A DNA stretch of 64,000 nt, taken from the NCBI RefSeq assembly GCF_000757825.1, contig NZ_CP009451.1, forward strand, positions 3,906,001 to 3,970,000. Direction: 5' to 3'. The position numbers and the translations under genes are program-made. Shown piece by piece: positions 58,672 to 59,473 of this stretch. Below the pieces are notes generated by a model. That model did not search any database, was not told the DNA's origin, and saw only the letters and a program-made list of their open reading frames with translations. The stretch is from Cedecea neteri (GTDB lineage: Bacteria > Pseudomonadota > Gammaproteobacteria > Enterobacterales > Enterobacteriaceae). Position 1 is the first letter of the stretch. Each line of letters begins with the position of its first letter.

Positions 58672-58840
58672 TAGCAAAAAGGCGCCTTTAGGGCGCCTTT
58701 CTACATTGGTGGGAGGATTGTGCAGGATACACTCGTCTCATCCTGAGACTCGCCCTTCGGGCCGTCGCCGCAAACGGCTCCGCTGTCTCACTGCGTTCGA
58801 CTCGAACCTGCAGCAGGTTCTCATCCTGCCGAATTACTCA
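58672..58840 (-). ncRNA. RtT-like repeat unit 1 downstream of the tRNA-Lys gene
   Basis: A 169-bp unit read on the minus strand. It holds GCAGGTTCGA (58802-58811) and ATCCTGCAC (58720-58728), the two halves of the tRNA-Lys T-arm, separated by a 73-nt insert, then CCCACCA (58707-58713) and a GGCGCC/GGCGCC terminator with a T-run (near 58676-58700). The last 40 nt of the insert (58762-58801) differ from unit 2. E. coli tyrT is followed by similar 178-bp repeats that yield rtT RNA. Confidence 0.65.
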
Positions 58841-59010
58841 TAGCAAAAAGGCGCCTTTAGGGCGCCTTTCTACATTGGTGGGAGGATTGTGCAGGATACA
58901 CTCGTCTCATCCTGAGACTCGCCCTTCGGGTCACCGCAAGCGGTGATGCAAAATTGTTCCCGACAATTTTGTCGAACCTGCAGCAGGTTCTCATCCTGCC
59001 GAATTACTCA
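58841..59010 (-). ncRNA. RtT-like repeat unit 2
   Basis: A 170-bp unit identical to unit 1 except in the core 58931-58971. T-arm halves lie at 58972-58981 and 58889-58897, CCCACCA at 58876-58882 and a terminator near 58845-58870. The variable core forms two perfect hairpins: TCACCGC-AA-GCGGTGA and CAAAATTGT-TCCCG-ACAATTTTG. Units 1, 2 and the tRNA-Lys end share the same sequence from CCCACCA through the terminator. Confidence 0.65.
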
Positions 59011-59014
59011 TAGC

Positions 59015-59039
59015 AAAAAGGCGCCTTTAGGGCGCCTTT
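59015..59039 (-). terminator. Terminator after tRNA-Lys
   Basis: Stem GGCGCC/GGCGCC with loop CTAAA and five T on the minus strand. It is the first of three copies; the others end the two RtT-like units. Confidence 0.85.
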
Positions 59040-59045
59040 CTACAT

Positions 59046-59121
59046 TGGTGGGTCGTGCAGGATTCGAACCTGCGACCAATTGATTAAAAGTCAACTGCTC
59101 TACCAACTGAGCTAACGACCC
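59046..59121 (-). tRNA. lysV: tRNA-Lys (anticodon TTT)
   Basis: 76 nt including encoded CCA. Acceptor stem GGGTCGT/ACGACCC, D-loop AGCTCAGTTGGTAGAGC, anticodon loop CTTTTAA and T-arm GCAGGTTCGAATCCTGC are intact. It is the last tRNA of a Val-Val-Val-Lys operon, 2 bp after the third Val gene, as in E. coli valUXY-lysV. Confidence 0.97.
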
Positions 59122-59123
59122 GA

Positions 59124-59199
59124 TGGTGGGTGATGACGGGCTCGAACCGCCGACCCCCTCCGTGTAAAGGAGGTGCTCTACCAACTGAGCTAATCACCC
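59124..59199 (-). tRNA. tRNA-Val (anticodon TAC), third copy
   Basis: 76 nt with encoded CCA; acceptor GGGTGAT/ATCACCC and anticodon loop TTTACAC. This copy has C at the base of the anticodon stem (CACCTCC), so the stem is fully Watson-Crick there. Confidence 0.97.
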
Positions 59200-59232
59200 A
59201 AACTTCGGTACTGCTAATTCTGTAAGAGGAGA

Positions 59233-59308
59233 TGGTGGGTGATGACGGGCTCGAACCGCCGACCCCCTCCGTGTAAAGGAGATGCTCTACCAACTGAGCT
59301 AATCACCC
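59233..59308 (-). tRNA. tRNA-Val (anticodon TAC), second copy
   Basis: 76 nt with encoded CCA. Same as the third copy except T instead of C at the first base of the anticodon stem (CATCTCC), which leaves a U-G wobble pair. Confidence 0.97.
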
Positions 59309-59352
59309 ATCTCTAAATCTCTTACTGTACATTCCGGGTCACTCTTAAAGAG

Positions 59353-59428
59353 TGGTGGGTGATGACGGGCTCGAACCGCCGACCCCCTCCGTGTAAAGGA
59401 GATGCTCTACCAACTGAGCTAATCACCC
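59353..59428 (-). tRNA. tRNA-Val (anticodon TAC), first copy
   Basis: 76 nt with encoded CCA, identical to the second copy, including the U-G pair at the base of the anticodon stem. It is the first gene of the operon, just after the promoter at 59446-59473. Confidence 0.97.
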
Positions 59429-59445: not shown

Positions 59446-59473
59446 ATTATAGGGACAGTTGAAAATGAGTCAA
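59446..59473 (-). promoter_or_regulatory. Promoter of the Val-Lys tRNA operon
   Basis: Minus strand: TTGACT (59468-59473), 16-bp spacer, TATAAT (59446-59451), then a GC-containing discriminator GCGACTCC, typical of strong stringently controlled stable-RNA promoters. The rest of the 259-bp gap to gltX holds no gene. Confidence 0.85.

Follow-up and report, generated by a model that had tools for sequence, protein, structure and literature searches.

How does a repeat acquire the end of whichever RNA gene precedes it? This question is posed in concrete form by a frame matched to its host, with an inverted copy of the host's own end, at tRNA-Tyr, tRNA-Lys, tRNA-Pro and tRNA-Phe and at one 5S locus tested, and it is raised here by two units that follow tRNA-Lys in a 64,000-nucleotide stretch of Cedecea neteri DNA (hereafter the window). 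The operon, on the minus strand, runs from a promoter-like site through three tRNA-Val genes and tRNA-Lys into an alternating series of hairpin, unit, hairpin, unit and hairpin (Table 1).

Table 1. Features of the Val-Val-Val-Lys operon and of the two units behind it, in window coordinates.
Feature	Position	Strand	Basis
Promoter-like site TTGACT-16-TATAAT, Val-Val-Val-Lys operon	59446..59473	-	consensus scan, 11/12
tRNA-Val x3 (59353-59428, 59233-59308, 59124-59199)	59124..59428	-	ARAGORN and RF00005
tRNA-Lys, anticodon ttt, host of the copied T-arm	59046..59121	-	ARAGORN and RF00005
Terminator-like hairpin, copy 1	59017..59039	-	repeat search
Proximal unit: inverted T-arm copy, 5' strands of P1 and P2	58983..58999	-	sequence; 15/17
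Proximal unit: direct T-arm 5' half GCAGGTTCGA	58972..58981	-	sequence
Proximal core, 74 nt, resembling 5S-linked repeats	58898..58971	-	sequence, core search, folding
Proximal P3, GGA loop	58949-58971	-	within proximal core
Proximal P6, GGA loop	58904-58918	-	within proximal core
Proximal unit: T-arm 3' half ATCCTGCAC and diverged acceptor copy, end CCCACCA	58876..58897	-	sequence
Terminator-like hairpin, copy 2	58847..58869	-	repeat search
Distal unit: inverted T-arm copy	58813..58829	-	sequence
Distal unit: direct T-arm 5' half	58802..58811	-	sequence
Distal core, 73 nt, mosaic: RtT-type P3/P4, P5/P6 as in proximal unit	58729..58801	-	sequence, Rfam, core search
Distal P6, GGA loop	58735-58749	-	within distal core
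Distal unit: T-arm 3' half and diverged acceptor copy	58707..58728	-	sequence
Terminator-like hairpin, copy 3	58678..58700	-	repeat search

The initial annotation of this locus had described two repeats that split the tRNA T-arm around a variable core, an observation that we confirmed; the interpretation built on it is partly supported. Both units can be read directly in the sequence 3' of tRNA-Lys, with a spacing of 169–170 bp, and each splits a T-arm copy into GCAGGTTCGA and ATCCTGCAC, with 74 nt between the halves in the proximal unit and 73 nt in the distal unit. The 33 nt adjoining ATCCTGCAC are identical between the units, and the remaining 41 and 40 nt differ. The proposed copying of the tRNA end held for the T-arm halves, which are exact, but not for the acceptor copy after ATCCTGCAC, which has diverged (AATCCTCCCACCA vs GACCCACCA; 4 mismatches in 18 ungapped positions). 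The copied tRNA end is exact over 9 nt and diverges beyond, compared with the 18–19 bp copy of the upstream tRNA or rRNA gene's 3' end that excerpts of PMC8144298 give as the hallmark of tRNA-linked repeats (TLRs); an exact 3'-end copy is present in a genus-mate locus (L196). The repeats had also been said to carry copies of the tRNA terminator. A repeat search found a GGCGCC hairpin followed by five T at three places, 169 and 170 bp apart, and hairpins with T-runs flank each unit on both sides, but a consensus terminator scan flagged none of the three (0 found; shuffles expect 1.4), and we therefore call them terminator-like by eye only. The consensus scan found no promoter of the units' own in the scanned stretch.

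Not noted in the initial annotation is that, in both units, the T-arm also occurs in inverted form immediately before the split copy. As this inverted copy precedes the split direct copy, P1 and P2 are predicted to be built from host sequence. The proximal unit folded better than shuffled sequence (z -3.2, 0/200 shuffles as good over 121 nt; z -2.5, 6/200 over 135 nt), as did the distal unit (z -2.2, 4/200 shuffles as good, or z -1.8, 7/200), and the predicted folds place GGA in two hairpin loops of the proximal unit and in one of the distal unit. A candidate P0 strand, a possible competitor of P1, was noticed by eye.

Searching with the Rfam RtT model (RF00391) matched both units, the distal one at 59.2 bits, above the gathering cut-off of 45, and the proximal one at 43.5 bits, just below it. 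These matches place the units beyond chance, bear out the suggested RtT kinship and assign both units to the known class of TLRs (Rfam RtT). The units lie directly behind a tRNA gene, as TLRs do; the host is tRNA-Lys, which does not agree with the NCBI description 'processed from tyrT transcript'. The same description is attached to an RtT sRNA that NCBI annotates behind tRNA-Lys in an E. coli record (L223, NZ_CP021726.1), where it cannot fit, and in the record of E. coli O157:H7 no RtT was annotated in the stretches inspected. Excerpts of PMC8144298 count 22 TLRs at ten loci in E. coli K-12, date their first description to 1978 and state that their function was unknown until the work on RrA, RrB and RrF. 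The parallel with E. coli tyrT/rtT drawn in the initial annotation is sound as kinship and otherwise calls for care, since an early claim for rtT in starvation and stringency was retracted by its authors (PMC8144298, excerpts). In excerpts of other papers, the differences listed by a Salmonella Paratyphi A comparison include a copy-number change of 175 bp at an rtT RNA (PMC2658671), RtT RNA is noted to have a tandem GA motif (PMC7657543), and RtT-family RNAs are located beside tRNA genes in Pasteurellaceae (PMC4986893).

RF00391 had matches in 84 of 149 family genomes at E<=0.001 and in all eight genus genomes at E<=0.01; among the 20 match-free family genomes listed, out of 65, 16 are <=2.0 Mb. 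One phage record contained a 38-nt match, and 23 plasmid records were matched, of which 14 among the 15 listed exceed 200 kb, some being chromosome-sized. We rejected a tRNA pseudogene as the origin of the units because units behind different tRNAs have homologous core helices and one layout, and an integrase scar was judged unlikely on the same ground.

To what extent is the frame matched to its host? Removal of 15 candidates without a P5 anchor, 8 duplicates and 5 with N reduced 196 candidate units to 168, and 5 more were removed to leave 163, of which 157 could be scored for the inverted arm and 159 for P1, the rest being too short there. The inverted T-arm of the unit's own host was matched at >=13 of 17 alignment columns in 116/157 units, compared with 3/157 for a direct T-arm control at the same bar and a shuffled mean of 7.5 columns. 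The mean score was 13.30 with the own host and 12.12 with hosts permuted (sd 0.074). The bar was reached by 10/10 Pro-TGG, 19/20 Pro-CGG, 63/86 Tyr and 24/37 Lys units. The P1 5' strand fitted its own tRNA best, or tied for best, among the genome's isoacceptors in 133/159 units and strictly best in 87/159, compared with 0/163 strictly best for a control stretch. Where the tRNA has CCCGC in place of CCUGC, as in six Lys units, this strand reads GUGG (GUGGG in one register); the other Lys units carry mostly GCAGG, GAAGG or GUAG, and two carry GCGG. These matches are not uniform, and the misses count against our favoured explanation set out below: the inverted arm falls below the bar in all four Ser units and in 13/37 Lys units, and P1 matches in none of four Arg units and fails in 14/20 Pro-CGG units.

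Beyond these hosts, the inverted 5S end was matched at 16/17 in one of three 5S-linked repeats and at 9/17, near shuffled, in the other two. Behind tRNA-Phe an inverted acceptor-plus-T-stem copy scored 8/10 compared with 5.3 for shuffles, with the ungapped T-arm at only 11/17. Within this genome we found 81 tRNA genes and examined 75 for a copy of their own 3' end (<=4 mismatches in 18, within 450 nt); 14 had one (Lys 3, Arg-ACG 4, Tyr 2, Ser-GGA 2, Pro-TGG 1, Phe 1 and Asn 1, the last taken as chance). Among the eight 5S genes, six of the seven inspected were followed by a copied 5S end, as judged by eye.

In the helices of the tRNA-linked units, with relatedness uncorrected, double changes occurred in 7/9 pairs of P1, 3/7 of P2, 4/5 of P3, 5/6 of P4, 1/4 of P5 and 3/3 of P6. 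The wobble-strand test gave a mixed result in these units, with G-U in 151 locus-level cells vs A-C in 100 and a reversal in P3 (4 vs 32). The P5 loop was GNA in 147/160 units, forming C-GNA-G triloops.

Inside the frame the core appears to be a separate, exchangeable part. Searched against this genome at E<=1, the proximal core matched, apart from its own place, the distal unit (90% over 45 nt) and, beyond the array, nothing but two 5S-linked repeats (80% and 79%), whose position is that of the CsrA-binding RrA/B/F RNAs in E. coli. A core of the 5S type matched eight places in the genome, each of them at the 3' end of a stable-RNA gene: four are 5S loci, one is this Lys locus, and the remaining three, at Phe, are on the other strand from the tRNA. 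Sequence comparison assigns the proximal cassette to the rRNA-linked RrA/B/F kind, and the distal unit reads as a mosaic of RtT-type P3/P4 with a GGA-type P6. A similar core was present in 24/149 family genomes at E<=1e-5, and a partial match in 1 of 5426 E. coli genomes at E<=0.01. Among 46 distinct cores, GGA occupies the P3 loop in 42, the P6 loop in 42 and both in 40, a share biased upward because the query itself has GGA loops; the P4 and P5 loops vary more. The stems of these cores covary, with double changes in 15/22 predicted pairs, and G-U outnumbered A-C by 25 to 11.

A host could be assigned to 34 of these cores, and 28 of them are in sense (Lys 16, 5S 10, Pro-TGG 2), the antisense ones lying behind Phe (5) and near one Tyr array (1). 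For the further 12 cores no host was assigned, and a scan of 11 loci, comprising host-unassigned ones and one partly masked, gave no tRNA or 5S above the cut-offs. Units found through RF00391 had two GGA loops in 7/168 cases, all within this genus, but the core search found two-GGA cores in other genera, and the RF00391-found sample is therefore biased by the Rfam model. Behind tRNA-Phe, both in this genome (L216, G000:C1:3323900-3325100) and in a sister species (L211, G149), the cassette is inverted and in tandem copies within a Phe-matched frame. At L246, both ERIC primer sequences match with one mismatch each, and the core comes directly after. Six core matches were listed in one genome (G020) and five in another (G011), and near the loci examined there neither a tRNA nor a 5S gene was found. 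Searching the loci for a literal pattern gave no match. The excerpts of the literature covered here contain no mention of an inverted host T-arm in TLRs, of an RrB-type core behind a tRNA or of the cassette in ERIC-like sequence; we make no claim of priority.

Several further loci stood out. As judged by eye, the cassette at L247 directly follows ERIC-like sequence, and L239, L240, L242 and L245 hold related cores beside further GGA-loop hairpins, with no tRNA or 5S detected in their vicinity; these are possible multi-GGA RNAs or repeats. Elsewhere in this genome, two tRNA-Ser(GGA) genes (L017, G000:C1:998600-1001200) are followed by four units, each with GGA in two hairpin loops, and by eye a coding stretch resembling an insertion sequence lies within the last trailer.

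Comparison of the orthologous lysV locus provided a second view of exchange. Within the genus, one genome (G071) has no unit and a bare tRNA-terminator end, one (G149) has a single GGA unit, two (G152 and G154) have one unit with another core, one (G150) has a double-core unit and a second unit, and the present genome has two units; in G151 and G153 contig ends interrupt the locus. Among the matches listed were 80 named gltX loci; by GltX the closest of these to the window were a record named Enterobacter sp. Cy-643 (100%) and Cedecea neteri, strain RIT693 and Cedecea davisae (99% each). Of the 80, 13 lacked tRNA-Lys and 3 ended <=51 nt past it, leaving 64 readable lysV loci. By our criterion, 26 of these listed loci had no unit, 32 had one and 6 had two, and a two-GGA-loop unit was found at 6 of the 38 that bear units: in Cedecea davisae, Enterobacter sp. 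10-1, Citrobacter sp. 18056, a record named Chryseobacterium sp. 18061 and two Buttiauxella. The Chryseobacterium record (L286, CACSKA010000009.1) carries an enterobacterial gltX-lysV locus and therefore looks mislabelled or contaminated. The lysV core is RtT-type in E. coli (L303) and a mosaic with GAA in P6 in Buttiauxella sp. A111 (L261). Decay in relatives, the fate that would have spoken against the initial annotation, is thus not what we saw in any simple form, but absence is frequent. The module exchange it suggested is well supported, since the proximal core's outside matches in this genome are 5S-linked repeats and the cores at orthologous lysV loci differ. For processing by tRNA enzymes, its other suggestion, the closest published evidence is the RrB 3' end, mapped 3 nt past the copied 5S end (PMC8144298, excerpts). 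A CsrA-type core replacing the usual one in a tRNA-linked repeat amounts to a natural swap experiment, in which locus and frame are constant and two cores are compared across named species. We have high confidence in the frame-plus-cassette anatomy and its exchange, as read from sequence.

We read each unit as an exchangeable hairpin cassette held in a frame that is derived from the host tRNA and consists of an inverted T-arm followed by a split direct T-arm. In the mechanism that we propose, RNA polymerase would read past the first terminator of the Val-Val-Val-Lys operon, and the read-through RNA would fold into a P1-closed domain whose P1 3' strand is the copied tRNA end, at which the RNA may be trimmed. 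The GGA loops on P3 and P6 would bind CsrA weakly, and the CsrA signal would therefore track stable-RNA transcription. Recombination at the copied tRNA end would maintain the cassette, with unequal crossing-over making the array grow and shrink. A csrA gene is present in this genome; it lies (G000:C1:3567875-3568350) ~330 bp upstream of a Ser-Arg-Arg-Arg-Arg tRNA array that itself has linked repeats. Taken whole, as tRNA-linked repeats with an exchangeable cassette and a read-through RNA with CsrA-type hairpins, this favoured explanation stands at an even balance in our judgement. That the read-through RNA binds CsrA in a selected role, with whatever benefit this would bring, is a tentative proposal that falls somewhat below even. 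A broader version, which we regard as speculative and unlikely, is that a ~73 bp cassette with two CsrA-type loops circulates in Enterobacteriaceae among rRNA and tRNA 3' ends and ERIC-like elements, that its frame, behind a stable RNA gene, consists of an inverted plus a split copy of the gene's last stem, and that its sense copies would jointly act as a distributed CsrA sponge, coupled to growth and supplied by read-through of terminators.

Precedent for such RNAs comes from RrA, RrB and RrF, which are located between two terminators of rRNA operons and are bound by CsrA and Hfq, although their phenotypes are only modest and a CsrB/C predictor gives scores <0.01 to the 19 TLRs of E. coli tRNA operons (PMC8144298, excerpts); the low scores and the modest phenotypes argue against the RNA reading. 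In E. coli O157:H7, reads over the Rfam-RtT loci numbered 3357 for RtT_1 and 3 to 30 for RtT_2 to RtT_4 (PMC5331693, excerpts).

The chief rival to a read-through RNA is a DNA-level passenger, a palindromic cassette that would spread among stable-RNA 3' ends and ERIC-like elements with no role for its RNA, and that gene conversion and template-switch correction of palindromes would keep matched to its host. The inverted, tandem cassettes behind tRNA-Phe here and in the sister species fit this reading, and the five distinct antisense cores behind Phe, with the cassette near one Tyr array, speak against an RNA. The passenger would likewise sit easily with the cassette beside ERIC-like sequence and with the genomes with five or six listed matches, the examined ones away from any tRNA or 5S found. 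The mixed wobble counts and the frequent absence at lysV support it as well and weigh against the RNA reading. The prevalent triloops of P5 also speak for the passenger, C-GNA-G being a loop class very stable in DNA. Three observations point the other way and favour the RNA reading: 28 of the 34 host-assigned distinct cores are in sense, the GGA-type cores have more G-U than A-C, and their GGA loops persist through changes in the stems. We regard the passenger as a serious possibility, if a rather less than even one.

A processing or transcript-end module, in which the copied tRNA end and hairpins would direct cleavage by RNases, stop 3' exonucleases or limit read-through behind a strong operon, whatever the core, would account for the location behind stable-RNA genes, the terminator-like hairpin after each unit here, a core sequence free to change and the mapping of the RrB 3' end 3 nt past the copied 5S end (PMC8144298, excerpts). 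This reading leaves loop conservation unexplained, however, and the 26 of 64 readable lysV loci, among those listed, that manage without a unit, like the bare tRNA-terminator end of the sister genome G071, make it improbable. Coding of small basic peptides, one of which (Tpr) was reportedly once proposed for E. coli tyrT, is very improbable: the units hold minus-strand ORFs of 45 aa (58857-58994) and 28 aa (58738-58824), but the two ORFs differ because the core differs, and ribosome coverage values in E. coli O157:H7 are 0.07 for the best-covered RtT and 0.69, 2.00 and 2.89 for the three poorly covered ones (PMC5331693, excerpts).

Returning to the favoured read-through RNA, we compared the window units with known systems. 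With the CsrB and CsrC sponge RNAs they share GGA in hairpin loops, but those RNAs have ~18 and 9 CsrA motifs (PMC8144298, excerpts), compared with two GGA loops in the proximal unit and one in the distal unit. ERIC and BIME elements are enterobacterial palindromic repeats too, a related cassette adjoins ERIC-like sequence at L246, and a similarity to rtT has been noted for attenuator candidates belonging to BIMEs (PMC2965389, excerpts); in contrast to these elements, the window units lie behind a stable RNA gene and inside a host-copied frame. The E. coli TLRs typified by tyrT/rtT (RF00391) share the position behind a tRNA, the copied tRNA 3' end, the tandem units, P1, P5 and the hairpin order, but the window units have tRNA-Lys as host and a diverged acceptor copy, and the proximal core is not RtT-type and falls under the Rfam cut-off. 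RrA, RrB and RrF differ in lying behind 5S rather than behind tRNA-Lys in a T-arm frame, and the CsrA binding reported for them is predicted for the window units. The proximal unit has the same kind of core as the 5S-linked repeats of this genome, with GGA loops on two hairpins; RrA, RrB and RrF lie between terminators, and the window units are flanked by terminator-like hairpins.
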